From Hyphobacterium sp. CCMP332 (GTDB lineage Bacteria; Bacteroidota; Bacteroidia; Cytophagales; CCMP332), in the NCBI GenBank assembly GCA_014323545.1, contig CP058647.1, positions 564,001 to 628,000 of the forward strand: a DNA stretch of 64,000 bases, read 5' to 3'. The position numbers and the translations under genes were made by a program. Positions 22,694-62,651 of the stretch are shown in pieces (the first letter of the stretch is position 1; each line of letters starts with the position of its first letter). Below the pieces are notes generated by a model, which saw nothing but the letters and a program-made list of their open reading frames with translations, was not told the DNA's origin and ran no database searches.

Positions 22694-22720
22694 TTCTTTA
22701 ATATCAATTTATGTATTAAT

Positions 22721-24990: not shown

Positions 24991-25008
24991 TTATTAAATA
25001 TTTTAATT

Positions 25009-25035: not shown

Positions 25036-25105
25036 TTCAACGGTTAAATCAAAGCATGATAATCAAATAAATTCGAAAGAAAGTATTTAAAAAAATAATC
25101 AAAAA

Positions 25106-37749: not shown

Positions 37750-40700
37750 TTAGAATGTATCCAGGTCAACAGGTCTGCTTATGTTAAAAAACTTAACAAC
37801 CTTCTCTCCCAACTCTCCTGCATCAATATGAATTAAGTAAACTCCGCTGGCAACCGGGATACCTTCTTCGTTGGTCAACTCCCAATTCTGGCTGCTAAGT
37901 CCAAGTCCGGGAATATCCTCTGGAATATTTCTATTGAATTGCCTGATTAAGGACCCATTCATTGAAAAAATAGATATTTTACATTTACCCGGAAGGTTGG
38001 TGATTTTTACATTTTTATCAACCTGACTTTGTTCATACTCGGAATAGGCATAGTAGGGATTCGGAACAACCCTTATAATGTCCAAATCGCTTTGTCCTTT
38101 TTCTTTACTCTCAAGAACAGACTGAAAACCACTTGTACTAAATGTATATGTAGGTGGAACTCCACATTCATTTGATTCATAATCCTTCTCAACCCGTAGT
38201 TTTACGCGTACGTCTGTTCTGTCATCCTCAGGAAGATTTGCAAATGCTCTTTTTATTTTCATCATTCCTATCCAGCTAAAAGATTGCTCATAAACAACTC
38301 CATATTGGTTGGATCGACTGATTTTCTGATCTTCAAAGGTGCTATCCATTTGTCTTTGAAATTTGCTTTGTACTCCGGGAATTTCAAAGTCATAAGGCAT
38401 GTTGCTTAGTATGATGTAATGATTATTAAGATCATTTGTATCAGGATTGTACAAAAGATCATTTCCGGAAACTGAATCAATCAATTTATTTTCGGTAAAA
38501 GCCAAATTCAAACGAATCCCTTTATCAATGTCTATTGCATAGCCTGGAAACCATGAATAACCTCTGGAATTCTCATTACTTCCACTTGGAAAGGCAACTT
38601 TTGTACCATCGGGGTTTCCATTTTTATCCACACTAAGCTTCTCACTTTTTTGAGAACGATTTACAACCTTACTAATAATACTTGAGTCAGGTGAGGCCAT
38701 TTGAATTACCATACATCTTGTCCACTTACTTTTGTCGCGAGTAAATACAATGTCAACATTTGGCAGATCCTGTATATAGGACCATCCTTCAGGTTCACGA
38801 ACAGCAACTCCAGGAGCAATACTTTCATCTGAAAATGCATTTTTTGATGAAATCCAAGTTGACCAGCTTCCTTCTAATACATTCTGATAAACATCGAGTT
38901 GATCATAGGTTATAAGTGAACTTTCAGCCTGATCAATCCATGGATGATTATCATAATCAATAGGGATTAACCAATCCTGTAATCTGTTTTCATAAACAAT
39001 ATTGGCATCCTGAAATCCATTCTTTTCAAACCCTTCCTCCCTGTTTTTATAACCCGGATTATATCCTCTTTCCAATTCAAGAGAAATTCCAAATTCTGGA
39101 ATAGTTTGTTCACTTTCATCACTAACAGGAACGGATCCTTTTACAACAAGGCCATCGGCTTTGAGTGTCCATAAATCGTGTTCTACAAAATTGATTGCAT
39201 TGACTATGCTGCTGCTGTCTGAATTTAACCAAAACTTTGTAGGGCGTTTTATTCCACTTCCTTCATACGTTTGCTGAGTTCCATCAATTCTTATTGCGTA
39301 AACATCTCTTACAAATGTTCCATTTTCACAACCGTTTAATAGCCTTACTTCCAATGTTTTAGAAGTAGCCGATTCTAATTCAGGAACTTCCCTTATTACA
39401 ATGGCTTTTCCATTTGTCTGTCTTTTGTAAGGATTGATTTGGTAATGAATTGAATTGCCATCCATATTCACAGTTTCATTGGATAAATAATCTCCCAATG
39501 ATTCGATGGTATCACCTTTGAGAAACTGAAAATTATTCTCAGTGATATCATATTCCAACCGACTTGTTAATACGACTTCAGCATTATTAACACTCTTTAC
39601 CAATTTAGGATCATAAACCTTGATTGAAAGCGGCCCTGAGCCTGATCTATAGACTCTTTTATAAGGCGTTCCTGAAAGGATTTTTTCCTCAACTCCTGTT
39701 TTAAATTCCAAGATATTTCCACCATTCCCGATTCCGCTTTCTGCTGTTATTTCAAACTCATCGCCATATCCCGAATTAAGAATTGTGCCAACACTAGGAT
39801 GAGGAACCACTACTTTCCTAATGCCATTTCTCCTGCCCAGAATAAAAGGCTGTTCTTTCCTATCACCAACATTATCACCTAAATTTTTGAAAGCCATAGT
39901 GGGATTATAGCCATAGGATAAAACAAGGAAGGTATAAGTCTTGTGGTTTACTAATTTCGGATCACCTTCAGCAAAGGCGTCATCAGTAACTCTCAAGGTT
40001 CTGAATATGCCATTATCCTGCCCTTCTACTTTAATGACCGGAACAAAAATATTTTCACCAATCGTTACATCATTTTCATAATTTATAATTCGGGTAACTC
40101 CATTAGCTATATCGCATTGTGCTATTAATCGCGCTTTGTCAGGATTATCCAGATCTGCTTCTGTAACTGTATTATTCGCCAATTGATAGAATAAATAACC
40201 TTCAAATCTGTAAAAATCACCAACATTTGCTTCGAATTCCTTATATGTTTCAGTATTCATCGCCTGACGAACACCTTGATTTACAATAGTAAATTCACTG
40301 GGCTCTATTGTTAATATAATTTCCTTATCCAGTTCAGTGACGATAACATCGGGTGCATCAGGCCCGTTGAGCAATTCAAAGTCATTATCATAAAGTTTTT
40401 GACAGATGTCATCTGCCACCTTTAATTTTCCTAAAGAACCTCTGGACCCGCCGGCTCCGGTTCTTGCCCAGGGTATTCCGATTGTCAATTCATTTAATGC
40501 CCCGGGTTCCAAAGTAAATGGCCCGGCCGACTGAAGCATTCTTCGATCATCCGGTTGATTTCCTGAAACTGTTTCATCCCAAGCAACATTCTGAGGGCCA
40601 CTATACGGTTGTTGCACGTTTCCTCCTAAACCCCAGCCGATTTCGAGGTCTGATTCTCCGGGAAACATAAAGTCGCAGGGGGGGAAGCTTTGTTGAATAC

Positions 40701-42087
40701 CCTGTCCAAGGTCATAAGTGCAATTTGAACCGTCTTTCCACTTATTTCTCAAATAATTAAAGAAGTCTTGTGCATTGTCTGGTTCACCATTGATAGAGCT
40801 TTCACTATTATTATAGTACACGAAATTCGACATGATTATTAACTCATCTATTTCATCCACCTCGCCATCTTTATCATTGTCTATTCCATCACCTTCATAA
40901 ACTTCATATCCCTTGTCAGGTTCATCAATGAAGCCATCTCCATCATTATCTATACCATCGCCTAAAGTGTCCTTATCTGCCCATGGGCCTTCAAAATAAT
41001 CAACACCTACTGATGGCGGATTTTCACCATATCCGGAAATTCCTTCATCAAATTCATCGCCATTATAACAGATTCCAAGGCCTCTGGGCACACAAACTCC
41101 AACATAATCGTCCTCTGCAAATCCAAGGTCAGGATCCACCCACTGCCCCATTCTGGTTTCTACAATTATTCTTGATCCACGATTGAGTAGCCTGTTCCAG
41201 TAAAAGGTCATATCATTTAATACGTCATTGGTTGCAAAGCCAAATCCCATCACTTGAATTTCCATATTTATGGGAGGAGCTGCTCCAATTACACCTCCAA
41301 ATTCCTTAGAATTTCCCTCATCGTTCATTACCCACCAAATGCCTTCATCTCCAAAAATAAAGGGCACATCCCCTTGCAAAGGATCGTAAATTCCGTCTCC
41401 GGCTCCTTCTTCTTCAATTTGTATAAATTCATCAAAAGGGGCCAAATCACGATCCATATCAACAGTTCTGTCATTGAACAAACCATCCGGGGAAGTGATG
41501 TAGGGATTATTTCTTCCGGGCCAGTTCAGTATGGGTTCTGGAATATCTTCCACCGATTGAATTCTGCCTGCCTGATATTCATCGATATAATTTTCAACCT
41601 CATCTCTGCTTATCTTGAAATGTACATCCCATGTTGCACATTCTTCTGTTGAAATGGTACCCCGGTCCGGTCCAGATTCATAAAGCGGGCCCGACCAAAG
41701 AGAATAATTTGTTTGTCTATAAGTATTGGCCAGAACCAGCAATTCTCCTGTAGACTCATCCTGTCCTCCCAGCCAAATTGAGCCGGCATATAGAGAATGT
41801 TGTTTTGGGGCACTTGGGTCGTCTTGTTTTGGAATTTCATAACGTGCCGCTTCGGGAGCGGTAACAGTCCACCACATGTCACCTCCATTATGCAATAAGG
41901 TTCTTACATTGTTTATTTCTAAAACTTCTCTGGAGCTGGATCTGGCACACTGGGCAGCAGTATACTTTTGATTAGCATTAAAACCTTTAGATTTTGCATT
42001 TGAGTGTTTATCAATTTCAGCATAACCGCAATAAGCAATTACCAATGATAAAATAAAGGTCAATACTAATTTTTCTACTGTTTTCAT
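37750..42087 (-). CDS. giant secreted T9SS cargo protein D of the tandem family
   Basis: The frame is open from a GTG at 42114, but I place the start at ATG 42087, because the residues after it form a signal peptide (MKTVEKLVLTFILSLVIAY, Cys/Ala cleavage near 23). The 1,445-residue protein has a conserved N-terminal block (LEINNVRTLLHNGGDMWWTV), two DGIDND-type acidic motifs near residues 370-410 (TSP3/MopE-like calcium-binding pattern), a long beta-rich region and a T9SS type A sorting domain (VVPNPYYAYSEYEQ ... VASGVYLIHID). It is the closest relative of protein C over most of its length. No enzyme motif is recognised; function unknown. Confidence 0.85.
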   Translation of the reverse strand: MKTVEKLVLTFILSLVIAYCGYAEIDKHSNAKSKGFNANQKYTAAQCARSSSREVLEINNVRTLLHNGGDMWWTVTAPEAARYEIPKQDDPSAPKQHSLYAGSIWLGGQDESTGELLVLANTYRQTNYSLWSGPLYESGPDRGTISTEECATWDVHFKISRDEVENYIDEYQAGRIQSVEDIPEPILNWPGRNNPYITSPDGLFNDRTVDMDRDLAPFDEFIQIEEEGAGDGIYDPLQGDVPFIFGDEGIWWVMNDEGNSKEFGGVIGAAPPINMEIQVMGFGFATNDVLNDMTFYWNRLLNRGSRIIVETRMGQWVDPDLGFAEDDYVGVCVPRGLGICYNGDEFDEGISGYGENPPSVGVDYFEGPWADKDTLGDGIDNDGDGFIDEPDKGYEVYEGDGIDNDKDGEVDEIDELIIMSNFVYYNNSESSINGEPDNAQDFFNYLRNKWKDGSNCTYDLGQGIQQSFPPCDFMFPGESDLEIGWGLGGNVQQPYSGPQNVAWDETVSGNQPDDRRMLQSAGPFTLEPGALNELTIGIPWARTGAGGSRGSLGKLKVADDICQKLYDNDFELLNGPDAPDVIVTELDKEIILTIEPSEFTIVNQGVRQAMNTETYKEFEANVGDFYRFEGYLFYQLANNTVTEADLDNPDKARLIAQCDIANGVTRIINYENDVTIGENIFVPVIKVEGQDNGIFRTLRVTDDAFAEGDPKLVNHKTYTFLVLSYGYNPTMAFKNLGDNVGDRKEQPFILGRRNGIRKVVVPHPSVGTILNSGYGDEFEITAESGIGNGGNILEFKTGVEEKILSGTPYKRVYRSGSGPLSIKVYDPKLVKSVNNAEVVLTSRLEYDITENNFQFLKGDTIESLGDYLSNETVNMDGNSIHYQINPYKRQTNGKAIVIREVPELESATSKTLEVRLLNGCENGTFVRDVYAIRIDGTQQTYEGSGIKRPTKFWLNSDSSSIVNAINFVEHDLWTLKADGLVVKGSVPVSDESEQTIPEFGISLELERGYNPGYKNREEGFEKNGFQDANIVYENRLQDWLIPIDYDNHPWIDQAESSLITYDQLDVYQNVLEGSWSTWISSKNAFSDESIAPGVAVREPEGWSYIQDLPNVDIVFTRDKSKWTRCMVIQMASPDSSIISKVVNRSQKSEKLSVDKNGNPDGTKVAFPSGSNENSRGYSWFPGYAIDIDKGIRLNLAFTENKLIDSVSGNDLLYNPDTNDLNNHYIILSNMPYDFEIPGVQSKFQRQMDSTFEDQKISRSNQYGVVYEQSFSWIGMMKIKRAFANLPEDDRTDVRVKLRVEKDYESNECGVPPTYTFSTSGFQSVLESKEKGQSDLDIIRVVPNPYYAYSEYEQSQVDKNVKITNLPGKCKISIFSMNGSLIRQFNRNIPEDIPGLGLSSQNWELTNEEGIPVASGVYLIHIDAGELGEKVVKFFNISRPVDLDTF

Positions 42088-42206
42088 GAGTTTTGTGATT
42101 CGCTTTATTAGCACGAATAAACCATACCATTTTATGAGAATCCATTATTCTTTTTTCATGAATTTACAGAAAAAAACAAAGTAAAAAATGCGCAGATTGG
42201 GGGATA

Positions 42207-42274
42207 TTTAAGCTTTTTTGGAGCTTAAACAGCGTTTTTATATAATTTCTTTATTCAATATTATCAAAAAACGC
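42207..42274. repeat. two inverted repeats in the C-D intergenic region
   Basis: TTTAAGCT (42207-42214) and AGCTTAAA (42222-42229) form a perfect 8-bp stem; GCGTTTTTATATAA (42232-42245) pairs imperfectly with TTATCAAAAAACGC (42261-42274). The second starts 8 bases after the stop codon of gene C on the minus strand and may end or stabilise its mRNA. No clear U tract follows. Confidence 0.5.
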
Positions 42275-42282
42275 CTATAATT

Positions 42283-45200
42283 TTAGAAAGTATCAAGGTC
42301 AATTGGTCTGTTGATATGGAAGAATTTCACCACCTTCTCCCCAAGTTCTCCCGCATCGATATGGACGATGTACACGCCACTGGCTACCGGGATACCTTCT
42401 TCGTTGGTCAACTCCCAGTTCTGACTGCTCAGACCCAGTCCAGCCACATCTTCTGCCACATTTCTGTTGAACTGTCGCACCAGTGAACCGTTCATCGAGA
42501 AGATCGAGATGGTACACTGTGCCGGTAAATTGGTGATCTTGACATTTTTATCCACCTGGCTTTGTTCGTATTCCGAATAAGCGTAGTATGGGTTAGGCAC
42601 CAATCTTATGATATCCAGATCACTTTGGGCTTTCTCCTTGCTTGCAAGGATCGCCTGTGAGCCTATCGTGCTAAAGGTATAGGTCGGTGGTACGCCGTTT
42701 TCGGTGGCCTCGTAATCCCTGTCCACGCGCAGGCGGATCCTGACATCGCCGCGATCTTCCACCGGCAGCGATACAAAACTCGGATTGATCTTCATCATCC
42801 CTATCCAGCTAAAGGTTTCCTCGTAGGTCACCCGGTACTGACTGGTTCGACTGGTGGTTTGATCCTCGAAGGTGCTGTCCATCAAGCGCTGGTAAGCACT
42901 CGGTTGTCCTGCCACTTCAAAGTCGTATTCCATATTGGTCACAATGATGTAGTGATTATTGGTATCGTTGCTGGTCGGGTTGTACAAGCCATCGTTACCC
43001 AGCACCGAGTCGACCAGTTTGTTTTCGGTAAAGGCCATGTTCAATCGTATGCCCTTGTCCACATCGATCGCATAACCCGGGAACCAGCTATAGCCTGTCG
43101 CCGGATCGGTGCTGCCATCTGGGAAGGCCGCCACTGCGCCATCCGGTTGCCCGTCTTTGTCCACGCTCAGCAACTCGCTTTTCTGTACCCTGTTCACCAC
43201 CGGGTTCACAATGCTCACCGTTGGCGGTGCCATCTGAACTACCATACAACGCGTCCACTTGCTTCTGTCCTGGGTAAAGACCACGTCCACGTTTGGCAAG
43301 TCCTGCATATAGGCCCAGCCTTCGGGGTTTCTTGCGTCCACGCCAGGAGCAATGCTCTCATCGGCAAAGGCCGCTTTGGTCGATAACCAGGTGCTCCAGG
43401 AGCCATCCAATACATTCTGATACACGTCCAGCTGATCATAGGTGGTCAATGAACGCGGGGCCTGTCCGATCCAGGGTAAATCACTAAAATCGATCGGGAT
43501 CAGCCAATCCTGAAGACGGTCGGCGTACTCAATGCTCGCGTCCTGGAAGCCGTTCTCCTCAAAGCCCTTATCCCTGTTTCTAAAACCCGGGTTAAAGCCG
43601 CGGCTCATCTGTACCGATAAGCCAAACTCGGGCACCGTCTGCTCGCCATCGGCGCTCACCGGCACAACGCCCTTCACCACAACCCCGTTCCCTTCAAGGG
43701 TCCAGAGGTCATGCTCTTTAAAGTCGATCGCCTGGGCTATCGATGAGCTGTCGCCTTCCAGCCAGAAGTTGGCCGGACGCTTGGTGCCGCCCAAATAACT
43801 CTCCTCGCCACCTTCACGGCGGATCGCAATCACGTCCCGGACAAAGGCCCCGTTCTCATCCCCGTTCAGCATTCGGATCTCCAGGGTCTTGCTATCGGCC
43901 GTCTCCAGCTCCGGTACCTCACGCACCACAACCGCTCTTCCTTTGATCTGGCGTTTGTAGGGACTGATCGTATAGGCGATCGTAGCTCCCGAAGAATTGT
44001 CCACTTCCTGTCCCGTGTAATTGCCCAGCGAAACCAAGGTGTCGCCAGGAAGGAATTTGTAATCATTATCGGCGCTGTTGTACTGCAAGCGGCTGGTCAG
44101 ACGAAGCTCCATGTTGTCGATGGCCTTCACCAGCTTGGGATCATAGACCTTCACCGATATCGGGCCCGAGCCCGCTCGGTAGGTGCGCTCAAATGGCGCC
44201 TTGTTTAAAATGCTCTCTTCCACCCCTCCGACAAATTCCAGGATGTTACCCCCGTTGCCAATGCCGCTCTCGGCGGTCAGCACAAACTCATCGCCATAGC
44301 CCGAGTTCAGCACCTGCCCGACGTTGGGATGCGGCACCGCCACTTTCCGGATACCGTTTCTTCGACCCAGAATAAAAGGCTGCTCTTTTCGGTCCCCTAC
44401 GTTATCGCCCAGGTTGGCCTGCGCCATCGCCGCATTGTAACCGTAAGAGAGCACAAGGAAGGTATAGCTCTTGTGATTTACCAGTTTCGGATCCCCCTCG
44501 GCAAAGGCATCATCGCTGACGCGCAAGGTTCTGAAAATGCCATTGTCCTGGCCTTCCACTTTAATGATCGGTACAAAAATATCTTCGCCCAGGGTCACAT
44601 CGTTTTCATAATTGATGATCGTGGTCACCCCATTGGCTACATCGCACTGCGCGATCAGTCTGGCGCGATCCGCATTGTCAAGGTCGGCCTCGGTCACCGT
44701 GTTATCGGCCAATTGATAGAAGAGGTAACCTTCAAAATTGTAGAAGTCTCCAATATTGGCTTCAAATTCGCGATAAGTCTCCGTGTTCATCGCCTGACGC
44801 TCACCCTGGTTGACAATGGTGAACTCGCTCGGCTCGATGGTAATGATAATCTCGCGATCCAGTTCAGTGATGGTCACATCCGGGGCATCAGGACCAGAAA
44901 GTAATTGAAAATCATTATCGTATAATTTTTGACAAATATCATCTGCGACCTTGAGCTTGTTCAGTGATCCGCGGGAGCCGCCTGCACCTGTACGCGCCCA
45001 TGGAATTCCAATGGTCAATTCATTCAATGCACCCGGTTCAAGGGTAAAAGGTCCGGCCGATTGCAACATACGACGGTCAAATGGTTGATTCCCGGCAATT
45101 ACTTCATCCCATGGTACATTTTGAGGACCTGCAAAAGGTTGATCAGGAGTACCACCCAGTCCCCAGCCTATTTCCAAATCAGAAGAACCCGGAAACATAA

Positions 45201-46638
45201 AGCTGCAAACCGGAAAACTTTGATTGGTGCCTTGCATAAGATCGTATGTGCAATTTGTTCCATCGCGCCATAGGTTTCTCAAATAATTAAAAAAGTCCAA
45301 GGCAGATCCCGGATTGCCATTTACCGGATTGCTATTATTGACATAATACATAAAGTTCGACATGATGATCAATTCATCAACCTCGTCAATTTCACCATCC
45401 TTATCATTATCTATGCCATCGCCTTCATAAACGGCATATCCCCTTTCCGGTTCATCGATCAAACCGTCAAGGTCATTATCAATTCCGTCTCCGATGGTAT
45501 CTTTATCGGCCCAGGGTCCTTCAAAATAATCAACGCCTACTGAAGGCGGATTTTCGCCATAACCACCAATTCCCTCGTCAAATTGATCACCATTATAAGC
45601 CATTCCAAGACCTCTTGGTACATCTACTTCTACATAATCATCAAAACCAAATCCAAGTGCCGGATCAACCCATTGTCCCATTCTGGTTTCTCCAAGAATC
45701 CTTGTTCCCCTATTCAATAAGCGGTTCCAATAAAAAGTCATGTCATTTAATACATCATTGGTTGCAAAACCAAAACCCATTATTTGAATCTCCATATCAA
45801 AGGGCGGTGCAGCTCCGATAACCTGGCCAAATTCCTTTTCATTACCGGCATCATTCATCACCCACCAGATACCTTCATCACCATATATAAAAGGCACGTC
45901 CCCTTGCAATGGATTGTAAATTCCATCTCCGGCGCCTTCTTCTTCTATTTGAATAAACTCATCAAAGGGTGCCAAATCGCGATCCATATCAACCACCTGA
46001 TCATTAAAGGCTCCATCCGCTGAGGTGATGTAAGGGTTCGATCTACCGGGCCAGTTTAGAATTGCTTCGGGAATATCTTCTATAGATTGTATTTTACCAG
46101 ATTGATAGTCCTCTAAATAATCTTCGATTTGGGCCCTGCTGACTTTAAAATGCTCATCCCAGGTATTGCATTCGGCAGCGCTTATTTCACCCTGATTAGG
46201 CCCTGAAGCATATAAAGGCCCAGGCCATAAGGCATAATGCGATTGTCTGTAGGTGCTGGCTAATACGAGAAGTTCTCCGGAGGTAAGATCCTCACCACCA
46301 ATCCAAACCGAACCTGCAAAAAGAGAGTGTCTTTTAGGAGCACTGGGGTTATCTTGCTTTGGGATTTCATATTGGGCATTGCTGGGTGCTACCACCGTCC
46401 ACCACATGTCTCCGCCATTGTGAAGCAAGGTTCTGACATTATTGATTTCTAAAGTTTCTCTTGAAGTAGATCGATTACATTCTGTTTTAATCCTTTCTTT
46501 ATAAAGAAGGCTTTTTTTTGTAGATTCTACGTCCTGATTGATTTGAGCTTCAACTTCAAAGCAAAATATTCCAAATGAAAGTATTACGATTAATAAACTG
46601 AATTTCACTAATTTTTTAGCTCCGCCTGAATGCAGCAT
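42283..46638 (-). CDS. giant secreted T9SS cargo protein C of the tandem family
   Basis: The 1,451-residue protein begins at ATG 46638 with a signal-like hydrophobic segment (about 10-31, LVKFSLLIVILSFGIF). The order is the same as in D: ETLEINNVRTLLHNGGDMWW, SVWIGGEDLTSG, WWVMNDAGNEKEFGQ, two DGIDND motifs (about 375-415), the long beta-rich middle with GPFTLEPGALNELTIGIPWA, and a C-terminal T9SS type A sorting domain (VPNPYYAYSEYEQ ... VASGVYIVHIDAGE). Codons in the last two thirds are strongly GC-rich unlike the neighbouring copies, described separately. Many Lys of D are Arg here. Function unknown. Confidence 0.85.
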   Translation of the reverse strand: MLHSGGAKKLVKFSLLIVILSFGIFCFEVEAQINQDVESTKKSLLYKERIKTECNRSTSRETLEINNVRTLLHNGGDMWWTVVAPSNAQYEIPKQDNPSAPKRHSLFAGSVWIGGEDLTSGELLVLASTYRQSHYALWPGPLYASGPNQGEISAAECNTWDEHFKVSRAQIEDYLEDYQSGKIQSIEDIPEAILNWPGRSNPYITSADGAFNDQVVDMDRDLAPFDEFIQIEEEGAGDGIYNPLQGDVPFIYGDEGIWWVMNDAGNEKEFGQVIGAAPPFDMEIQIMGFGFATNDVLNDMTFYWNRLLNRGTRILGETRMGQWVDPALGFGFDDYVEVDVPRGLGMAYNGDQFDEGIGGYGENPPSVGVDYFEGPWADKDTIGDGIDNDLDGLIDEPERGYAVYEGDGIDNDKDGEIDEVDELIIMSNFMYYVNNSNPVNGNPGSALDFFNYLRNLWRDGTNCTYDLMQGTNQSFPVCSFMFPGSSDLEIGWGLGGTPDQPFAGPQNVPWDEVIAGNQPFDRRMLQSAGPFTLEPGALNELTIGIPWARTGAGGSRGSLNKLKVADDICQKLYDNDFQLLSGPDAPDVTITELDREIIITIEPSEFTIVNQGERQAMNTETYREFEANIGDFYNFEGYLFYQLADNTVTEADLDNADRARLIAQCDVANGVTTIINYENDVTLGEDIFVPIIKVEGQDNGIFRTLRVSDDAFAEGDPKLVNHKSYTFLVLSYGYNAAMAQANLGDNVGDRKEQPFILGRRNGIRKVAVPHPNVGQVLNSGYGDEFVLTAESGIGNGGNILEFVGGVEESILNKAPFERTYRAGSGPISVKVYDPKLVKAIDNMELRLTSRLQYNSADNDYKFLPGDTLVSLGNYTGQEVDNSSGATIAYTISPYKRQIKGRAVVVREVPELETADSKTLEIRMLNGDENGAFVRDVIAIRREGGEESYLGGTKRPANFWLEGDSSSIAQAIDFKEHDLWTLEGNGVVVKGVVPVSADGEQTVPEFGLSVQMSRGFNPGFRNRDKGFEENGFQDASIEYADRLQDWLIPIDFSDLPWIGQAPRSLTTYDQLDVYQNVLDGSWSTWLSTKAAFADESIAPGVDARNPEGWAYMQDLPNVDVVFTQDRSKWTRCMVVQMAPPTVSIVNPVVNRVQKSELLSVDKDGQPDGAVAAFPDGSTDPATGYSWFPGYAIDVDKGIRLNMAFTENKLVDSVLGNDGLYNPTSNDTNNHYIIVTNMEYDFEVAGQPSAYQRLMDSTFEDQTTSRTSQYRVTYEETFSWIGMMKINPSFVSLPVEDRGDVRIRLRVDRDYEATENGVPPTYTFSTIGSQAILASKEKAQSDLDIIRLVPNPYYAYSEYEQSQVDKNVKITNLPAQCTISIFSMNGSLVRQFNRNVAEDVAGLGLSSQNWELTNEEGIPVASGVYIVHIDAGELGEKVVKFFHINRPIDLDTF
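42320..45050. other. GC-rich anomalous segment inside giant gene C
   Basis: Counted by hand, bases 43081-43140 are 40 of 60 G/C and 44941-45000 are 38 of 60, whereas the near-homologous part of gene D (38521-38580) is 21 of 60. By 45061-45120 it is 26 of 60. The change at the 3' end is near 42320, that at the 5' side near 45000, and is gradual over about 150 bases. The protein across this part stays closely related to protein D. The high GC gives rise to several long open frames on the other strand (for example 42859-43386 and 44329-44904), which I consider artefacts. Confidence 0.85.
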
Positions 46639-46724
46639 TGCATTTGATTTAACACTAACTTAAGGATATATTAAAATATTTGGAATTGTTTTAATCTAAG
46701 TGGTATAAATCATTACGTTAGAAG

Positions 46725-49700
46725 CTAAAAATCATAGCTGATATTATCAATGCGCCTCACATAAAAGAACTTTCGCACAATTTCACCAATTTCATCAGCT
46801 TCTACGTGAATCAAATATACGCCTGAATTAATGGGTTGAAACGATTCATTGGTCAAATCCCAAATCTGCGTGGCCCCTTCAGACCCAAGAAAACTTTCAT
46901 CAAATTCACGATTGAATGATTTGATTAATGAGCCGTCTATGCCGTGGATGGCAATTTTGCATTTAGGAGGTAAATGAGTGATTTTAACTCTTGTATCCTC
47001 AATGGTATTTTCATAACTAGAACCTAAAATATAGGGGTTGGGAACAATCCGTATATTATTGAGCTCTTCGCTCATTTGAGATCTGGAAAATATTGTGTTT
47101 TGATTCAGTTTAAATTTCCATTCGGGGTTAACTCCATTTTGAGTCATATCATATTCACGGTTTACTCTTAGTTTAATTCGTACGTCTTTTCTTTCTTCTT
47201 CAGACAATTCCGAATAGTCTTCATTGATCTTCATTATGCCAATCCACGAAAACAATTGCTCATATAAAATTCTGTACTGACTTGTTCTAGTCACTGTTTG
47301 ATCCAAAAAAGTACTATCAAACATCCGCTGTATTGAACTTCCCTCAGAATTTTCAAAATCGTATTCTCTGTTGATTATCATGATATAATGATTATTGGTA
47401 TCATTTGTATTTGGATTGTAAAGCAGGTCATTGCCGCTTGTTCCTAATGAGTCTCTCAATTTGTTTTCTGTAAAGGCAAGGCCTAATCGAATTCCACGAT
47501 CCAGGTCTATGGCATATCCCGGAAACCAGGAATATCCTTTTGATAATTCTGTGCTACCATCAGGGTATGCTGCCAAAGTTCCGTCCGGTTCACCGTTCTT
47601 ACCTAAACTGAGTTTTTCACTTTTCTGAACCCGGTTAACAACCGGATTAACAATACTTACTTCAGGTGGTGCCATTTGAAGTACAGGGCATCTTGTCCAA
47701 TTGCTTCGGTCTTGTGTAAAAACGATGTCAACATTTGGCAGATCCTGAATATAAGCCCATCCTTCAGGGTTTCTGGCATCCACACCAGGTGCTATACTCT
47801 CATCGACAAAGGCCGCCTTTGTGGACAACCATGTGGACCATGAGCCTTCCAATACATCCTGATAAACATCCAATTGATCATAATTAAATAAAGAATTTGG
47901 TCTTGGGCTAATCCAGGGTAAAGAGTCAAAATTTATGGGAATCAGCCATTTTTGATCTAAATCAGAATATTTGATCTCAGCTGAAATAAATCCATTATCC
48001 TCAAAACCTATCTCCTTATTTTTGAATCCGGGGTTCTCAGCATTGAAGATATTTATTGCAAGACCGAGTTCGGGTATGAGTTCTTCTCTGTTTTCCGTTA
48101 TTGGTATAGATCCTTTATAAATTCTACCTCCAGCACTGACATTCCAGAAATCATTGTTTTCAAAATCTGTACAAACAGCATTTGAACTCGTGTCATTTAG
48201 TAGATGAAAGCCTGCAGACCTTTTCGTGACGCCTTTATATGACTCTTCACCCCCAATACGATAAATTTCTATAACCTCTCGAATAAATGTTCCACCTTCT
48301 GCCCCATTTAAAAGTCTGATTTCAAGGGTCTTTGTTTTATCCGTTTCGAGATTCTCTCTTTCTGTAATTACAATTGCCATTCCTGGTTGCTGTCTTTTAT
48401 AAGGATTAATAGTATAACTGATACTGCCAAAACCGTCCATTACCACCTCTTGACTTATATAATCTCCGGATGAAACTATCGTATCACCTGGAAAAAACTG
48501 AATATCACTATTGAGTTTGTCGTATTCGAGTCTGGATGTCAAATAAATACTAATTGAATCGGGTAAATCTTGAGCAAATGGGTCGTATCGATAACAATTT
48601 AGCGGTGAATTTTTTTCTTGATAAATCAGATTTGGCTTTTTACCTGTTAAGATTGAGTCTTCAACACCCTCAATAAAGTCTAATACATTTCCTCCATTTC
48701 CCTTACCTGAAATTAGTTTCATTGTAAATCCGGCATCTGCATTTTCAGTGATTATACTTCCGGGTTTGGCATGAGGAATGGCTTTATAAATTTTGATGTT
48801 CTTTTTGCTTTCTATGTATGTTTGATAGACCCTTTCATTCAAATTGCTCAATTGATTTAGTTCATTGGCTCTTTTATTATAGCCATAAGCCACTACACTA
48901 TAATAGTATTCTTTGTTATTGACCAATTTCGAATTATCATCAAAAGCATCTTCTTTGATTGAAATGCTTCTCTGAATTCCTTTATCTAATCCCTGCACCT
49001 CAACTGAGGCATTAAAATAGCATTGCCGGCTTTCAAAGGCAGATGTAAAATTGGTAATTTGACTTATGCCATTTTCTAAATCGCATTGATATATTAATCT
49101 TGCTTTATCAGGATTTTTATATTCAGAAGGATCAATATTTTCATCGATCAGCTGATACACCAAATAGCCTTCAAAATCATAAGATGCGCCTATATCTATA
49201 TCGTCTTCGGAGTAAATTTCTGTATTCTGTATTTCAAGTCTGCCATTTTTCAAAACGTTCATTTTGGCTGGAACAAGATTAAGACGAATTTCATTTTCCA
49301 GTTCCCGGATAGTAACATCAGGAGCATCGGGTCCATTTAAAAATTGAATATCTCCGTTATAGTATAAGCATTGTATATAATCATCCGCGCAGAGCAATTT
49401 GTCAAAACTGGCTCTGGAACCACCGAATTCAGCCTGGGCCCAGGGCACACCAACCGTATATTCTACCAAAGCTCCCGGTTCCATTGAAAAAGCACCAATT
49501 GATGGTACAAAACGACGATCTGCCGGTTGATTCCCAGAAATAAATTCATCCCATGGTTCATAATTTGGAATATGGCTCGGATTACCTAATCTATCACTTA
49601 ATTCTTGCCATGAGTTGCCTGGAAACATATAATTAGTTGCAGGAAAATTTTGTTGCAATCCCTGAGCAAAATCATGGGTATGTTTTGTTCCATCTCTCCA

Positions 49701-50969
49701 AAGACTTCTGGTGTAAGCAAAGAAATCAAAAGCTGATCCCGGATTCCCATTGGCGGGATTAGAATTTCCATTGTAATACATGAAATTACTCATGCTTATA
49801 CGCTCCCCGAATTCATCAATTATGCCATCCCAGTCATTATCAAGGCTATCCCCTTCAAATATGGCAAAACCATTATCCGCTTCATCGACCAAACCATCGC
49901 CATCATTATCAATTCCATCGCCAATGGTATCAAAATCAGCTAGGGGACCACTAAAAAAATCTATACCAATCGCCGGCGGTTTATCGCCATAGCCTGCAAT
50001 ACTTTCATCAAAATCATCCCCATTAAAACAAATTGCCAATCCCCTTCCTACATCGGATTGAACAAAATCATCTCCCGCAAAACCCAGATCGGGGTCTGCC
50101 CATTGTGAAATGTGCGTTTCAGCAATATCTCGATGGCTTTTATTGATGAATCTATAATTGTAAAGCGTAGCGTCATTTAATGGATCATCTGTGGCAAATG
50201 CATGCGCCAAAACTTGAATTTCCATACCTATTGGAGGTGCGCCACCAAATACACCTCCAAACTCTTTTTGATTGCCAATATCATTCATCACCCACCAAAT
50301 ACTCTGATCGCCTTTGATATCGGGAATATCTCCATCCAGCGGATTGTAAATTCCGTCTTCTTTTTCCGGTTCAATAAAAGGAGCCAGTTCCATATCAAGA
50401 TCTGAAATCTCGCCTTGCAGAAATGGATTATTTCTTCCCGGCCAATAGCGTATGGCTGCCGGAATATCTTCTTCCTTTAAAATTAATCCATTTTCAAAAT
50501 CAAGTAGAAATTGAGCGATTTCATCTCTGTTCACTTTGAATTGTCTGTCCCATTCCTTACAGGTTTCCGCATTGGTGAAAACCCCTGCTCCGGAGCCTAA
50601 CACCGGTCCCGGCCATAAAGAATAGTGAGATTGGCGGTAGGTGCTTGCTATTACAAGCAGTTCATTGTTGTTATTGTCTATTCCTCCGAGCCAAATGGAA
50701 CCGGCAAAAAGTGAATGCGATTTATTGGCACTGGGATTATCCTGTTTTGGGATTTCATAGCGAGCTGCACTTGGGGAAATGACAGTCCACCACATGTCAC
50801 CGCCATTGTGTAATGTCGTTCGAACATTATTGATATCGAGTTCTATCTGAGAAGTGGCTCTTGCACAGTTGCCTTGTGCGGAAATATTCGAAAATATACT
50901 GTTGATAATTATTATGGTACAAAATAAAGAGTGATGAAATAAGGTATTGAACAGCCGATAATGATTCAT
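46725..50969 (-). CDS. giant secreted T9SS cargo protein B of the tandem family
   Basis: The 1,414-residue protein starts at ATG 50969 with a signal peptide ending NISAQ (about residue 32). The N-terminal motifs (LDINNVRTTLHNGGDMWWTV, SLFAGSIWLGGIDNN), two acidic DGIDND/DSLDND motifs at about 345-385 and the C-terminal sorting domain (IVPNPYILGSSYENT ... NSGVYLIHVEADE) are as in C and D, with about half the residues changed. A block around residues 1030-1130 (STWLSTKAAFVDESIAPG, GWAYIQDLPNVDIVFTQ) is closer to C than D is. It is 17 bases after gene A and 86 bases before gene C. Function unknown. Confidence 0.85.
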   Translation of the reverse strand: MNHYRLFNTLFHHSLFCTIIIINSIFSNISAQGNCARATSQIELDINNVRTTLHNGGDMWWTVISPSAARYEIPKQDNPSANKSHSLFAGSIWLGGIDNNNNELLVIASTYRQSHYSLWPGPVLGSGAGVFTNAETCKEWDRQFKVNRDEIAQFLLDFENGLILKEEDIPAAIRYWPGRNNPFLQGEISDLDMELAPFIEPEKEDGIYNPLDGDIPDIKGDQSIWWVMNDIGNQKEFGGVFGGAPPIGMEIQVLAHAFATDDPLNDATLYNYRFINKSHRDIAETHISQWADPDLGFAGDDFVQSDVGRGLAICFNGDDFDESIAGYGDKPPAIGIDFFSGPLADFDTIGDGIDNDGDGLVDEADNGFAIFEGDSLDNDWDGIIDEFGERISMSNFMYYNGNSNPANGNPGSAFDFFAYTRSLWRDGTKHTHDFAQGLQQNFPATNYMFPGNSWQELSDRLGNPSHIPNYEPWDEFISGNQPADRRFVPSIGAFSMEPGALVEYTVGVPWAQAEFGGSRASFDKLLCADDYIQCLYYNGDIQFLNGPDAPDVTIRELENEIRLNLVPAKMNVLKNGRLEIQNTEIYSEDDIDIGASYDFEGYLVYQLIDENIDPSEYKNPDKARLIYQCDLENGISQITNFTSAFESRQCYFNASVEVQGLDKGIQRSISIKEDAFDDNSKLVNNKEYYYSVVAYGYNKRANELNQLSNLNERVYQTYIESKKNIKIYKAIPHAKPGSIITENADAGFTMKLISGKGNGGNVLDFIEGVEDSILTGKKPNLIYQEKNSPLNCYRYDPFAQDLPDSISIYLTSRLEYDKLNSDIQFFPGDTIVSSGDYISQEVVMDGFGSISYTINPYKRQQPGMAIVITERENLETDKTKTLEIRLLNGAEGGTFIREVIEIYRIGGEESYKGVTKRSAGFHLLNDTSSNAVCTDFENNDFWNVSAGGRIYKGSIPITENREELIPELGLAINIFNAENPGFKNKEIGFEDNGFISAEIKYSDLDQKWLIPINFDSLPWISPRPNSLFNYDQLDVYQDVLEGSWSTWLSTKAAFVDESIAPGVDARNPEGWAYIQDLPNVDIVFTQDRSNWTRCPVLQMAPPEVSIVNPVVNRVQKSEKLSLGKNGEPDGTLAAYPDGSTELSKGYSWFPGYAIDLDRGIRLGLAFTENKLRDSLGTSGNDLLYNPNTNDTNNHYIMIINREYDFENSEGSSIQRMFDSTFLDQTVTRTSQYRILYEQLFSWIGIMKINEDYSELSEEERKDVRIKLRVNREYDMTQNGVNPEWKFKLNQNTIFSRSQMSEELNNIRIVPNPYILGSSYENTIEDTRVKITHLPPKCKIAIHGIDGSLIKSFNREFDESFLGSEGATQIWDLTNESFQPINSGVYLIHVEADEIGEIVRKFFYVRRIDNISYDF

Positions 50970-50986
50970 AAACTCAACTTTTAATT

Positions 50987-53900
50987 TTACCGATTTGAAA
51001 GATCGCCTCTGACATAAAAGAATTTTCTAACTGTTTCTTTATTTTTTGTACTAACATGAATCAGGTAGGCTCCCGAAGATATTTCCAAGCCATTTTCATT
51101 TCTCAAATCCCAGTTCTGGATTGCTCCTTCTGAACCAAAATAATCAGAAGGGTAATTTCTATCAAAGGACCTAATCAATACTCCATTCATGTCATAAATA
51201 TTTATTACGCACTCATTTGGCAACTCCGTAATTTTCACCATTCTTGACGAACCACCGCCTTCATAAGGAGAAGCAAATAAATATGGATTAGGAACCAATT
51301 TAACTCCGTCCAAAATATTATCGGCTGTTCTATTTTGAATTGCACCACCATTGATTTTAAAAGCCCAGGTCGGGTCTATACCGTTTTCTGTCATCTTATA
51401 AGGAGCATTTACACGAAGTTTAACTCGCATTTCAGGCAGACCCAAGGTATTTGTCCCTAAAGTCTGATCATACTGAAGTATACCAGTCCATGTAAAAATT
51501 TTAGAATATAAATCCATGTAATTAACAGATCGGGTTATCGTTTGATCTTCAAATACAGAGTCTAACAGATGCTGGAATTCGCTATTTGGTTCTTCCATAT
51601 CATATTCAAGATTTGTAACCACGATATAATGATGTGGAATACTATCGTCCTCTTGAGGGTTATAAATTAAATCATTGCCTGCAGTACTATCCAATGCTAA
51701 ATTTTCTGTAAATGCCATATTTAGCCTTTTTCCAGAATTAATATCGATAGCATAACCAGGAAACCATCCATATCCTTTGCTCAAAGAATTGGTTCCATTA
51801 GGGAATAATGACTTACTTCCATCAGGAAGTCCTCCTTTGTTAACACTCATTTGTCTACTCTTTTGAGATTTGGAAACTATTGGATTTACAATACTAGTAT
51901 TGGGACTCTGAACTTGTATCACGGGACATCTTGTCCATTTTAAGCTATCATTGGTTAATACGATATCAACATTATTAATCGTGCTAATTTGTTCCGCCTG
52001 GCCAAACCAATAGGCCCAACCTTTTTTGAAAGGTTCAGAACCACTTGATGCTACAATTGGTAAAAAAGAACCTTGCAACACGTTTCTTAAGGTGCCATAA
52101 TAATCCATTGGGACATAATCGTAACCAATTAAACTTACTTCATTAAACCATTGAAAAGAGTCTGAGTCAATTATCTTTAATCTTTTATCATTTGGGTTGT
52201 TGTATTTAACTGTAGCATTAATAAAACCATTATTAATGTTATCAATATCAATAGAATTATATCCTGCGGCAAAAGAATGATCAATACTGACTTTTAAACC
52301 CAAGGATGGAAGAAGTTCTTCGATACCAAAACTAATTGGGTTTTGACATTTAATTTTAGCTCCATTATTACTTATAGTCCAGAAATCATTCTCCTTAAAA
52401 TCAATGCAAGTCGAATTTGAAATCGGAATACCTTTTACTTGAAATTGGCATGGATATTTAACCAATTTGTCAAAAACAAAATCAGGTGCCCTTTTGATTT
52501 TATAATATGTTTTTATAAACTTTCCTCCTTCCACACCATTGAGAAGCCTAACTTCCAAAGTTTTAGTTGTTGGTGTTTCCAAATCCAATCGTTCTTCTAA
52601 TACAACCGCAATACCCGGTTCTTGATCCACTGCTTGAACAAGTATCAGTGAATCCGAATTGTTAAAAGTTTCAGTACAAATTATCGTGTCTCCTGGTAAA
52701 AAATTATAGTTATTGCCGGTTTTAGAAAATTCAAGTCTACTCGTCAAAGAAACTTCAATAGAATCCGTTGGCGCAGCATTTGGATTGTAAACCTTTATAT
52801 CAAGAGGACTAGAATTATTATCATATACTAAATGAGGAGAATTGCCTGCCAATATATCATCTTCTATTCCTGTGGCGAAATTCAGAAAATTGCCCCCATT
52901 CCCACTTCCTGATTTCACCACCATAGAAATGGCATTAGAATTAATTGTAGTACTACCATTTGGATTTCTAAAAGGTACTGCACTTTTAACCGTAGAATTT
53001 CTTCTACTCTGAACATAGGTCTTATAATATTTATTAATTAGTGGAACAGAATTTAAACTATCAGCTTTCGCATTGTATCCATAAGCTACAGCCATGAAAT
53101 AATAACTTTTGTTATTTATTATTCGATTTCCATTGTCAAATAAATCATTCCTGAAAACAATGGACTTATTCAATCCACTATCGCTTCCTTGCACCTTAAG
53201 GACAGGAACTGAGCTACATCCAAATGAATTAAACTGAAATTCAGAATCATTTATATCAGTTACACCATTTTGAATATCGCTTTGTGAAATCAATCTTGCT
53301 AAATTCGGGTCATTGAGATCATCTGTAATTACATTTTGATTTAGCAATTGGTATACTTTGTATCCTTCAAATGCAAAGTAGCCACCTGTTAGCTGATCAT
53401 ATTCAAAATAACTCTCTGTATTCGTGGAAGTTAAGTTACCGTTGTTATTTACAGCAAAGTCACTAGGAAACAGATTTATTAGCAATTCACGATCCCTTTC
53501 AATAATCTGTAAATCAGGAGCATCAGGTCCATTTACCAACTGGAATCCTGAATCATAAATTTGTTGAACATAGTCATCAACACATTTAAGTTTATCAACA
53601 CTGCTTCGATTATCACCTAAAGCTGATTGTGCCCAAGGAACAGAAATTGTTGTTTCAAATACTTCACCAGGCTGAAGTTTCATTGGTCCAAATGACATTA
53701 CAAATCTGCGATCATCACCTGCATTTAGTGCGATTTCTTCATTCCAGGGGGTATCAAAAGGAGCAGATAGTGGTGGGTTGCCTTGTAGCGCGTTCAATTG
53801 AATCAAACTATTGTTTGGAAACATATAATCAGTTTGAGGAAAGTTTTGATCTGTTCCAAATCGAAAATCGTAAGTCATTGTGGATCCATCTTTCCAAATT

Positions 53901-55171
53901 CCTTGAAGGTAATTGTAAAAATGCTCAATTGAACTTGGTGAACCATTAATAGGACTGTTATTATTGTTATAGTAGACAAATTTACTCATTCCAAGTTCCT
54001 CATTAAATTCATCTACTATTCCGTCATGATCATTGTCAATTCCATCACCTTCGAATATCTCATATCCATGCTCACCTTCATCAATCAGTCCATCACCGTC
54101 ATTATCAATTCCGTCAGCAGATATAGAATAAAATGCCTTTGGGGCATTAAAAACATCAATACCAATGGCTGGTGGTAAAGATCCATAGCCACTAATTCCT
54201 TCATCAAAATCATCAGCATTATAACAAATACCCATATTTCTGATAATGTCACATTCAATAAAATCATCATCAGGATTACCTATATCCGGATCAACCCAAT
54301 GCCCTAAATAGAAGTCATTTATAAGGTAAGGGCCTTTATTGCTCACCTCATAATGATAAAAAGTCATATCATTTAGTTGGTCATTTGTTGCAAAACCATA
54401 CGCAGTTTCCTTTATTTGATATCCAGCGGGTAAATGTCCTGATGATACACTACCAAATTCCTTAGCTCCACCAATATCATTATAAATACACCAGATATCC
54501 TCATCACCCAGGATTACTGGAATATCTCCTTGAAGCGGATCATAAATACCATCTTGAATTCCTGAATACTGTTCTGAAAAAGGAGCGAGATTATATGACA
54601 TATCGGCAATTTCATTGGATAGATGAGGGTTGTTTTTTCCCGGCCATTTTAAAATTTCAACGGGAACGTCATTTATTGATTGAATCAGTCCTTGCTGATA
54701 AGCAACCACAAAATCTTCAATTTCATCTTTATTCACTTTAAAAAACCGATTCCAATCCTCACATTCCTGAGCTTGAATACTTAGATTTGAGTTTTTTATA
54801 GGCCCGGGCCAGTAGGAATAATGTGCTTGTCTATAAGTATGTCCTGCCATCAGAATCTGGTCTGTAGCAGCATCTACACCTCCAAGCCAGAGCGCACCTG
54901 CAAAAAGTGAGTTTTTCTTTGGGAGGTATGGATTATCATTTTTAGGGATTTCATAAACAGGCCTAGTTGGAGAAGTTACTGTCCACCATTTATCAGACAT
55001 ACTAAGCATCGCCCTGACATTGTTAATTTCCAAAGTGATCTGTGCAGAAGTTCGCGCGCAATTAGTTGCAGCCTTAGAAAATAATGGTGTTTTCCCTTTA
55101 ATGACATCAGATTTTACAGGGAAAAAAACATGAATAAGAATAACAGTTAAACATGATATCTGTCTTTTCAT
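50987..55171 (-). CDS. giant secreted T9SS cargo protein A of the tandem family
   Basis: The most divergent copy, 1,394 residues, probably the first gene of the leftward unit. Signal segment at about 5-18 (ISCLTVILIHVFFP). The family's N-terminal block reads ITLEINNVRAMLSMSDKWWTV, so the HNGGDM part is changed. Two DGIDNDGDG / DGIDNDHDG motifs lie at about 345-390. The sorting domain reads VPNPYLFASPYEGG ... SGAYLIHVSTKNKE. A 249-base gap upstream (55172-55420) is AT-rich, holds the divergent promoters and no gene I can see. Confidence 0.83.
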   Translation of the reverse strand: MKRQISCLTVILIHVFFPVKSDVIKGKTPLFSKAATNCARTSAQITLEINNVRAMLSMSDKWWTVTSPTRPVYEIPKNDNPYLPKKNSLFAGALWLGGVDAATDQILMAGHTYRQAHYSYWPGPIKNSNLSIQAQECEDWNRFFKVNKDEIEDFVVAYQQGLIQSINDVPVEILKWPGKNNPHLSNEIADMSYNLAPFSEQYSGIQDGIYDPLQGDIPVILGDEDIWCIYNDIGGAKEFGSVSSGHLPAGYQIKETAYGFATNDQLNDMTFYHYEVSNKGPYLINDFYLGHWVDPDIGNPDDDFIECDIIRNMGICYNADDFDEGISGYGSLPPAIGIDVFNAPKAFYSISADGIDNDGDGLIDEGEHGYEIFEGDGIDNDHDGIVDEFNEELGMSKFVYYNNNNSPINGSPSSIEHFYNYLQGIWKDGSTMTYDFRFGTDQNFPQTDYMFPNNSLIQLNALQGNPPLSAPFDTPWNEEIALNAGDDRRFVMSFGPMKLQPGEVFETTISVPWAQSALGDNRSSVDKLKCVDDYVQQIYDSGFQLVNGPDAPDLQIIERDRELLINLFPSDFAVNNNGNLTSTNTESYFEYDQLTGGYFAFEGYKVYQLLNQNVITDDLNDPNLARLISQSDIQNGVTDINDSEFQFNSFGCSSVPVLKVQGSDSGLNKSIVFRNDLFDNGNRIINNKSYYFMAVAYGYNAKADSLNSVPLINKYYKTYVQSRRNSTVKSAVPFRNPNGSTTINSNAISMVVKSGSGNGGNFLNFATGIEDDILAGNSPHLVYDNNSSPLDIKVYNPNAAPTDSIEVSLTSRLEFSKTGNNYNFLPGDTIICTETFNNSDSLILVQAVDQEPGIAVVLEERLDLETPTTKTLEVRLLNGVEGGKFIKTYYKIKRAPDFVFDKLVKYPCQFQVKGIPISNSTCIDFKENDFWTISNNGAKIKCQNPISFGIEELLPSLGLKVSIDHSFAAGYNSIDIDNINNGFINATVKYNNPNDKRLKIIDSDSFQWFNEVSLIGYDYVPMDYYGTLRNVLQGSFLPIVASSGSEPFKKGWAYWFGQAEQISTINNVDIVLTNDSLKWTRCPVIQVQSPNTSIVNPIVSKSQKSRQMSVNKGGLPDGSKSLFPNGTNSLSKGYGWFPGYAIDINSGKRLNMAFTENLALDSTAGNDLIYNPQEDDSIPHHYIVVTNLEYDMEEPNSEFQHLLDSVFEDQTITRSVNYMDLYSKIFTWTGILQYDQTLGTNTLGLPEMRVKLRVNAPYKMTENGIDPTWAFKINGGAIQNRTADNILDGVKLVPNPYLFASPYEGGGSSRMVKITELPNECVINIYDMNGVLIRSFDRNYPSDYFGSEGAIQNWDLRNENGLEISSGAYLIHVSTKNKETVRKFFYVRGDLSNR

Positions 55172-55420
55172 AAATAATCCATTTTGAACAAAATAGCATT
55201 AGTTGTGCCTAATTATCCATAATTTCTAAAAGGACTTTTTTCATAAGAAAATTGATTACAAGTAATATAAAACATCACCAAAATTATCTGTTAATGACTT
55301 TAATGACCGATTTATTCAATTATTTGAAAATGTGTTTTTCGCAATTTTCCTATCAATTATTAGATCATACTTTCTTTAAAATTCAGAATTATCTTCATAT
55401 TTGAGTTCAAAGCGAATTAA

Positions 55421-56734
55421 ATGCAACCCCTCAAAGAAGCTTTTGAAATACTCAATACTTTAAAACCTTCAGAAATTGATCATTTTCTGAATTTCGTAGC
55501 ATTTGAGAATCCCAAACAACACAAAAACTATATTAGGCTTACCGATTTGGTGATCAAAAAAGGCAAAGATGATTTGCCGAATAACAAAGCTCTAAGTAAA
55601 ATTTTTCCTTCGCCCCAGGTCTATCGCAGAGTTAACGAATACAAGGATATCCTGAAAAAATACCTATTGATTTATATCATTCCGGAAGAATCCTATGCCG
55701 CTCTGAATTCCGAAATCATTTATTTACGCTATTTGAGAAATCAGGGATTAATGGATCAGTTTGAGTCCGAATTTGAGGATGTTAAAAAAGAATTGGAAGC
55801 AAGTCATTCCAGAGATGATTTTCGATCATTGTATATAAATTTTTTAAATGAGAGCCGAAGAAATTTTTATCACGTTTACTATAACGAGCAAAATTTTAAA
55901 TACAACTCGGTTGCTGCCAATTATAAGGAATTAGACAAAATCAAAAAATGGATAAATTCAGGCCATTTATTTAATAAAATATTTTATGATTTTTCCTTGA
56001 GAGCTGCGCATAAAATAGAGGAAGGTACCTTACAAAAATCTGCTCAAAAAGCATTTACTCCTGAGTTTTTTAGTTTTAAGGAATACATGGAAATGCTCGA
56101 TTCTCAGGAGCTGCCTTTGCTGTATAAAACCTATATTCTGGATATTTTGGAAGGAAGTGATAAAATTAAAGCAAAGGCCTATCATCAGGCCGTGGAAAAA
56201 ATTTTCTATTCCAATTATCATGAAGCGAGTGTTAATGTTAAAAACAATATTCTCATTCTTTTGATAAGCTCATCTAAAATACCTCAGGAATTAAAATCTG
56301 AATACTACAAAGAACTGGTAGATCTGAAAGAAGAGTTAAATCCCGGTGTTCTGAATAAGTACATACTTGAACATCTGGAGATGGATGTGAATAAGGCAAG
56401 GACTGAATTTGATCGCTTGCGGAGCAAAGCAAAAGACCCGGAAAACGATTTAAATGCCATTGAAGGAATTGTACTCTGTAGGGAAGGAAAATACAATGAA
56501 GCTTTGGAGCTTTTAAACCAGGTTATGATTTATCAGCAGGACAATATGTACTTTGATTTAAACCTCGCGCTTTTAAAAGCTTATTATGAAATCGGTGATA
56601 TAGAAGTCGCCCATTCTAAATTGAACAACCTAAAAGTCTATTATCACAAATACAAGGAGCATATGGGTGGCGAAAAAGAAAGTAAGTACAAGTATCTTAT
56701 TAATGATTATAAGAGAATGTTGGATGGGAAGTGA
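55421..56734 (+). CDS. conserved protein of unknown function, helical
   Basis: The 437-residue protein has no signal peptide and is predominantly alpha-helical, with a pattern compatible with TPR-like repeats in the last third (EGIVLCREGKYNEALELL near residues 345-365, then DLNLALLKAYYEIGDIEVA near 370-390). I recognise no catalytic motif. It is divergent from the giant-gene array and not obviously linked to it. A direct repeat lies just after the stop codon. Confidence 0.6.
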   Translation: MQPLKEAFEILNTLKPSEIDHFLNFVAFENPKQHKNYIRLTDLVIKKGKDDLPNNKALSKIFPSPQVYRRVNEYKDILKKYLLIYIIPEESYAALNSEIIYLRYLRNQGLMDQFESEFEDVKKELEASHSRDDFRSLYINFLNESRRNFYHVYYNEQNFKYNSVAANYKELDKIKKWINSGHLFNKIFYDFSLRAAHKIEEGTLQKSAQKAFTPEFFSFKEYMEMLDSQELPLLYKTYILDILEGSDKIKAKAYHQAVEKIFYSNYHEASVNVKNNILILLISSSKIPQELKSEYYKELVDLKEELNPGVLNKYILEHLEMDVNKARTEFDRLRSKAKDPENDLNAIEGIVLCREGKYNEALELLNQVMIYQQDNMYFDLNLALLKAYYEIGDIEVAHSKLNNLKVYYHKYKEHMGGEKESKYKYLINDYKRMLDGK

Positions 56735-62412: not shown

Positions 62413-62462
62413 CTTATCTGTTTAGCTTATTGAGAAAGTGTTTGGGAAGAGTCGCATCTTCA

Positions 62463-62560
62463 CTCATCTTTCCCCATTAAAGGGGGTGGGAAGTAGCACC
62501 CGACTAGCTCGGGTTGCTAAGACATCAACGGGCCCATTCCCTCAGTCTTTCTCGATAAGT
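62463..62560 (-). promoter_or_regulatory. SAM-I (S-box) riboswitch
   Basis: On the minus strand, the 5' segment CTTATCGAGAAAGACTGAGG (complement of 62540-62559) is followed by the S-box core elements: TGGGCCCG, TTGATGTCTTAGCAACC, a P3 stem-loop CCCGAgctagTCGGG, then TGCTACTTCCC, a P4 hairpin CCCC-TTTAAT-GGGG and the closing GAAAGATGAG. P1 pairs CTTATC with GATGAG; AAGAC pairs with GTCTT in P2. The order and spacing match the SAM-I family. About 50 bases separate it from the metH start. No U tract follows, so control may act on translation rather than by termination. Confidence 0.93.
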
Positions 62561-62651
62561 ATTACAAAGAAAAAGATAAATCTTCATTTTTAATAATATA
62601 TTTCGGTGAATAGTTCAGTTTGTGCATTTTTGGCAAAATCTTGATTAAAAT

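Follow-up and report, generated by a model that had tools for sequence, protein, structure and literature searches.

Four giant genes in tandem

We analysed a 64,000-nucleotide stretch of the genome of Hyphobacterium sp. CCMP332, a member of the Bacteroidota (contig CP058647.1, positions 564,001 to 628,000; hereafter the window), in which a tandem array of four leftward genes encodes giant paralogous proteins. All four genes lie on the reverse strand: first in reading direction is P0004 (copy 4, 50987..55171, 1394 aa), followed by P0003 (copy 3, 46725..50969, 1414 aa), P0002 (copy 2, 42283..46638, 1451 aa) and P0001 (copy 1, 37750..42114), the last comprising 1454 aa from a GTG start or 1445 aa from an ATG at 42087. 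The intergenic gaps measure 17, 86 and 168 bases, the third becoming 195 with the ATG start, in agreement with a preliminary description of the window that had reported four leftward giants with gaps of 17, 86 and about 195 bases. A fifth full-length copy, P0008, lies 2.2 Mb from the array at 2828222-2832589, and the copy-number comparison that the preliminary description had called for accordingly gave five full-length copies in this genome.

The four array proteins can be aligned end to end, and their amino acid identity to P0008 is 76% for P0001, 91.5% for P0002, 54.5% for P0003 and 42.9% for P0004; most pairs among the five copies other than P0002/P0008 fall between 42.9% and 76.3%. The strength of the identity between adjacent genes excludes chance as the source of this paralogy. 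A lone artefact, in which one gene had been misassembled into several, is ruled out by the strong divergence among the copies and by the presence of giants at the equivalent position in two relatives of the same family, G001 and G002, so the array is four intact genes. One complete and one partial giant adjoin homologues of P0005 and DprA in G002, and a giant adjoins a homologue of the tetratricopeptide repeat (TPR)-like gene at 55421-56734 in G001, these neighbour homologies being judged by eye from gene order, length and sequence. Trees placed all giants of this genome, G001 and G002, operon copy included, in a single clade, indicating that the array is a lineage-specific expansion and that the family grew by duplication, as had been proposed.

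Every giant has a hydrophobic N-terminus, two acidic repeats of the DGIDND type and a common C-terminal domain (CTD), and each array protein carries its own signal peptide. INNVR and WWTV are invariant in the N-terminal block of all four array proteins; alignment and sequence thus confirmed the N-terminal block, the acidic motifs and the C-terminal region that had been described as common to the four. The acidic repeats of P0001, DGIDNDGDGFIDE and DGIDNDKDGEVDE (40852..40959), are probable metal-binding loops, with counterparts in P0002 (45382..45489), P0003 (49812..49919) and P0004 (54008..54115); all four pairs gave sub-threshold matches to NF033662, and that of P0004 also to PF11617. Residues 580-765 of P0002 (44344..44901), the sole confident part of its structure model, form a putative fibronectin type III (FnIII)-like domain: the top rows of a VIA-align structure search were mostly FnIII domains (best Z 8.5), and a distant giant homologue gave a sub-threshold match to fn3 (PF00041). 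Searches of Pfam, NCBIfam and PDB sequences returned no family covering most of the giants' length, consistent with the earlier expectation that no known enzyme or adhesin family would do so.

A conserved operon and its C-terminal domains

The fifth copy stands in an operon in which a TonB-dependent receptor (TBDT), P0009, is followed by the giant P0008 and by a barrel of the PorV/PorQ family, P0010. P0009 has a plug domain (PF07715, E 2.9e-11) and a carboxypeptidase-regulatory N-terminus (PF13620, E 9.3e-18). P0010 scores 138.8 bits with PorV_fam, over the cut-off of 90, and is neither PorV nor PorQ by curated cut-offs (PorQ 67.8 bits against 220; PorV 54 against 250); PorP/SprF models match it weakly, and PorV_fam scores highest. 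The same order of three genes is found in most order-level relatives with sufficient sequence and, intact, at 36 of the 39 loci read across the phylum, a fraction biased upward toward operonic copies because the loci were chosen as the best matches in their genomes; orphans are in reality more frequent than this sample shows. The automated count was 35, to which we added L113, where all three genes are present and were probably missed through an overlapping read-through open reading frame (ORF). The incomplete loci are L081, which ends at a contig edge after the TBDT and the giant, and L105 and L109, which lack both partners. On these gene orders, the giants belong in the middle of a conserved operon, TBDT-giant-PorV-like, which is found repeatedly across the Bacteroidota. 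At L086 (11246-14651, reverse strand) the TBDT is split into ORFs of 736 and 413 aa, by a frameshift or a sequencing error.

Giants were detected at E 1e-30 or better in 91 of 392 sampled genomes, this one included. The preliminary description had suggested looking for co-occurrence with genes of the type IX secretion system (T9SS), and this was found: the T9SS sortase gene PorU is present in all 91 giant-bearing genomes versus 270 of the 392 overall (p 1e-17 in a Fisher test that ignores phylogeny). The largest family of the organism's own class in this sample (f26) gave no giant match, and a scan of genome contigs returned only two relatives, both from one metagenome-assembled genome. Contigs of relatives often break off within giant genes (L045, L046, L051, L057, L058, L059, L060 and L081), as is expected where near-identical copies coexist, so the number of copies in a draft genome is uncertain.

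The preliminary description had assigned the giants a T9SS type A sorting domain. The shared C-terminal region stood, but the standard type A assignment did not: the best matches of the array proteins were 14.9 bits (E 0.032) to PF18962, under the cut-off of 27, and 18 bits to TIGR04183, under the cut-off of 23. Their best C-terminal matches, like those of distant homologues, are instead to PorZ and PorU, within the CTD portions of the two. The CTD of P0001 (37750..38097) scores 166.2 bits with the CTD profile and matches the PorZ CTD at E 2.9e-6; that of P0002 (42283..42630) scores 168.4 bits and matches PorZ at 1.3e-6 and PorU at 1.1e-4; that of P0003 (46725..47072) scores 139 bits and matches PorZ at 3.9e-6; and that of P0004 (50987..51334), which lacks the RPxDLDTF end, scores 126.5 bits. 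The PorZ matches of P0001-P0003 came from the NCBIfam search, and a separate search returned this match for all five copies. When the whole genome was ranked by the CTD profile, the five giants were followed by a 711-aa protein of a second TBDT cluster (53.2 bits), PorZ (25.0) and PorU (24.7), with just two more proteins below (20.5 and 19.3 bits), even though PF18962 matches in this genome number 109. The CTD of the giants thus appears to resemble the uncleaved type of PorZ and PorU more than standard type A. In Porphyromonas gingivalis, PorU:PorV and PorZ:PorQ form complexes whose barrels are thought to anchor surface proteins (PMC5562754), and PorA, PorU and PorZ keep their CTDs (PMC11285876).

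The genome encodes exactly four PorV_fam barrels: PorV, beside PorU; PorQ; P0010; and the barrel of the second cluster, which accompanies a TBDT and the 711-aa CTD protein. By their sequences, these four would correspond to four CTD classes, those of PorU, PorZ, the giants and the 711-aa protein. The second cluster (L075 5826-15521, within G000:C1:1803001-1822000, reverse strand) also encodes a 488-aa probable lipoprotein and a 722-aa protein that has a type A CTD and gives a partial match to ExeM/NucH nuclease. Homologues of the giants that lie outside the triad have CTDs of other kinds: those at L055, L061 and L062 gave no CTD-profile match, and the short homologues of this genome, P0011 and P0012, pass the PF18962 cut-off. 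In the cases seen, therefore, the CTD type travels with the barrel gene. The array is the exception, having the giants' CTD type with no barrel gene alongside. Two short proteins homologous to the N-terminal domain of the giants, both ending in a standard type A CTD, were observed at L013 (6270-7886, 538 aa) and L014 (6243-7850, 535 aa), each coming after a protein of about 410-430 aa.

These data bear on a conventional explanation, namely that the giants are ordinary T9SS cargo of the adhesin or matrix kind, cleaved at the CTD and either released or attached to lipopolysaccharide, with the operon link reflecting co-regulation only. Signal peptides, FnIII domains, acidic repeats and large size are all frequent in surface adhesins, the genome holds 109 PF18962 matches, and some distant giant homologues attain the TIGR04183 cut-off. 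However, the giants' CTD is more like those of PorZ and PorU than like those of the type A set, nearly every sampled locus has a dedicated barrel gene 3' of the giant, and homologues outside the triad have different CTDs. We consider ordinary cargo unlikely. The suggestion in the preliminary description that the giants are surface or matrix proteins finds support, from the CTD and the genomic association with PorU, as far as probable T9SS export is concerned, but the closeness of the CTD to the uncleaved type favours a receptor subunit held by a barrel over a matrix protein that is released.

Exchange between the array and the operon

P0002 and P0008 share a tail of foreign composition, indicating that array and operon exchange segments. 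In P0002 the GC content at third codon positions (GC3) changes after codon 584 from 0.337 to 0.662 (twice the log-likelihood difference, 150), defining a 2.6-kb tail from codon 585 (42283..44886, reverse strand), and in P0008 it changes from 0.317 to 0.649 (157). The mean GC3 of 28 other window genes is 0.305 (SD 0.028), and no comparable rise is seen in P0001, P0003 or P0004. In bins of 50 codons, the nucleotide identity of P0002 and P0008 is 89-100% after about codon 590-600, with zero differing codons across 1011-1162; before about codon 590 it is mostly 65-90%, falling to 43% at the signal-peptide region. The composition break sits at the motif GPDAPD, which is the start of the FnIII domain. 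We also considered high expression as the source of the raised GC3 and rejected it: the GC3 of EF-Tu is 0.301, that of the operon TBDT 0.286 and that of the barrel 0.264. The simplest reading is that the tail was imported from another species and then copied from one locus to the other; a search of 59 relatives yielded no donor. Between the operon copy of G001 and its array-end copy, identity reaches 100% in N-terminal stretches.

Such exchange could also mean that the array serves mainly to store sequence with which the operon copy can recombine and is itself little expressed, in the manner of cassette-based surface variation. The near-identical tail of P0002 and P0008 beneath divergent heads, its GC3 near 0.65, and the identity of the N-terminal parts of the G001 copies would all be expected of such a store. 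Yet the four array genes are full length and have their own signal peptides, the exchange may be incidental among expressed paralogues, and the conserved position in G002 is equally expected for expressed genes, and we regard this explanation as improbable.

The surroundings of the array offer little guidance: its neighbours (DprA, the TPR-like protein and methionine synthesis) point to no functional tie with the giants. The divergent intergenic region expected to carry the array promoter (55172..55420, unstranded) contains a single candidate, TAATTTTG, matching a TAnnTTTG-type -7 box at -115, and no paired TTG box accompanies it in this region. Elsewhere in the window, a second tandem array (17918-27298, forward strand) encodes four T9SS metalloproteases of 713-733 aa; all four combine an M43 peptidase domain and PKD matches with a standard type A CTD. 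An S-adenosylmethionine (SAM) riboswitch (RF00162, 74.9 bits) at 62461-62561 on the reverse strand lies immediately upstream of a leftward cluster of homocysteine methyltransferase, B12 methionine synthase and methylenetetrahydrofolate reductase.

A proposed barrel-held receptor subunit

We lean towards a model in which the giants are exported by the T9SS, keep their CTD uncut and are held by a PorV-like barrel of their own beside an importer, the array supplying variant subunits. The signal peptide would take a giant across the inner membrane, and the T9SS would carry it through the outer one. The giant's PorZ/PorU-like CTD would then be kept and would dock in P0010, the barrel dedicated to it, just as PorQ holds PorZ and PorV holds PorU. 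This would place the large N-terminal part outward beside the TBDT, where it may capture or feed ligand much as SusD does for SusC. The array proteins would be alternative subunits using the single P0010 barrel and P0009 receptor, and the array would recombine with the operon copy where the N-terminal head meets the FnIII domain. No neighbouring enzyme hints at the ligand, and Rfam searches at four loci found no riboswitch upstream of the TBDT.

Several observations weigh against this model. The array has neither a TBDT nor a barrel alongside. Most operon copies at the order level end in a conserved DLDTF, which is absent from P0003 and P0004, and the docking of these two may be weaker or of another kind. 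On both counts, some array proteins may not use P0010. The PorZ and PorU matches of the CTDs are local and far under the full-length cut-offs, as is expected of one shared domain. The AlphaFold2 models, built from few input sequences, have mean pLDDT (per-residue model confidence) values of only 34.6 and 36.0 and are usable only in the FnIII part. To these must be added the neglect of phylogeny in the PorU test and the upward bias of the triad fraction, both noted above.

The shuttle-family barrel, the PorZ/PorU-type CTD and the constant presence of PorU are equally features of another explanation, in which the triad assists the T9SS or surface assembly and spends TonB energy on release or quality control, not import. 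The patchy spread of the giants (91 of 270 PorU-bearing genomes) and their variable copy number nevertheless fit a ligand-specific module better than core machinery, and we judge such an accessory role to be very improbable.

The closest known arrangements are PorZ:PorQ and PorU:PorV, the T9SS attachment complex of P. gingivalis, in which an unremoved CTD sits in a PorV/PorQ-family barrel (PMC5562754, PMC11285876), as we propose for the giant and P0010. Within this genome, PorZ and PorU also have the CTDs nearest to those of the giants, if the second-cluster protein is set aside. Unlike PorZ and PorU, the giants come with a TBDT, give no match to the C25 peptidase and match PorZ nowhere beyond the CTD, and P0010 falls under both curated cut-offs. 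In layout, the triad resembles the pairing of type B CTD proteins and their PorP/SprF-like shuttles (SprB-SprF, PorP-PG1035), where a dedicated surface-retaining barrel is often encoded directly downstream (PMC12618676, PMC9143113). In contrast to these, the four array proteins have no Pfam match to CHU_C, the type B CTD, at E up to 10, P0010 matches PorV_fam best, and a TBDT is added. In SusC-SusD and BtuB-BtuG, as in the triad, a TBDT gene is paired with the gene of a surface protein. Unlike SusD-type partners, the giant has no clear lipoprotein signal (the first Cys of P0008 is residue 58), no SusD match in Pfam or NCBIfam and a T9SS-type CTD. Lipoprotein-TBDT complexes have been treated in the literature (PMC12578637).

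We found no published description of the TBDT-giant-PorV-like triad in the open-access PubMed Central (PMC) literature. Its parts (TBDT, CTD protein and PorV-family barrel) are of known kinds; what lacks a description in the open literature is their occurrence as a fixed set and the dedication of a PorV-family barrel to a type-A-like CTD. More tentatively, and with considerable doubt, the triad may represent an unnamed, phylum-wide TonB-linked complex, in which an outer subunit delivered by the T9SS would sit permanently in its own PorV-family barrel and be diversified by swaps of imported segments between array and operon at a fixed domain boundary.

A 2025 study describes a single shuttle, PorV, for all type A CTDs and dedicated shuttles for type B CTDs (PMC12618676). 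If the proposed arrangement is true, the dedicated-barrel rule would extend to the PorV family, contrary to that PorV-only statement for type A CTDs. It would also tie the T9SS to nutrient uptake and make a role for large uncharacterised proteins across the phylum testable.

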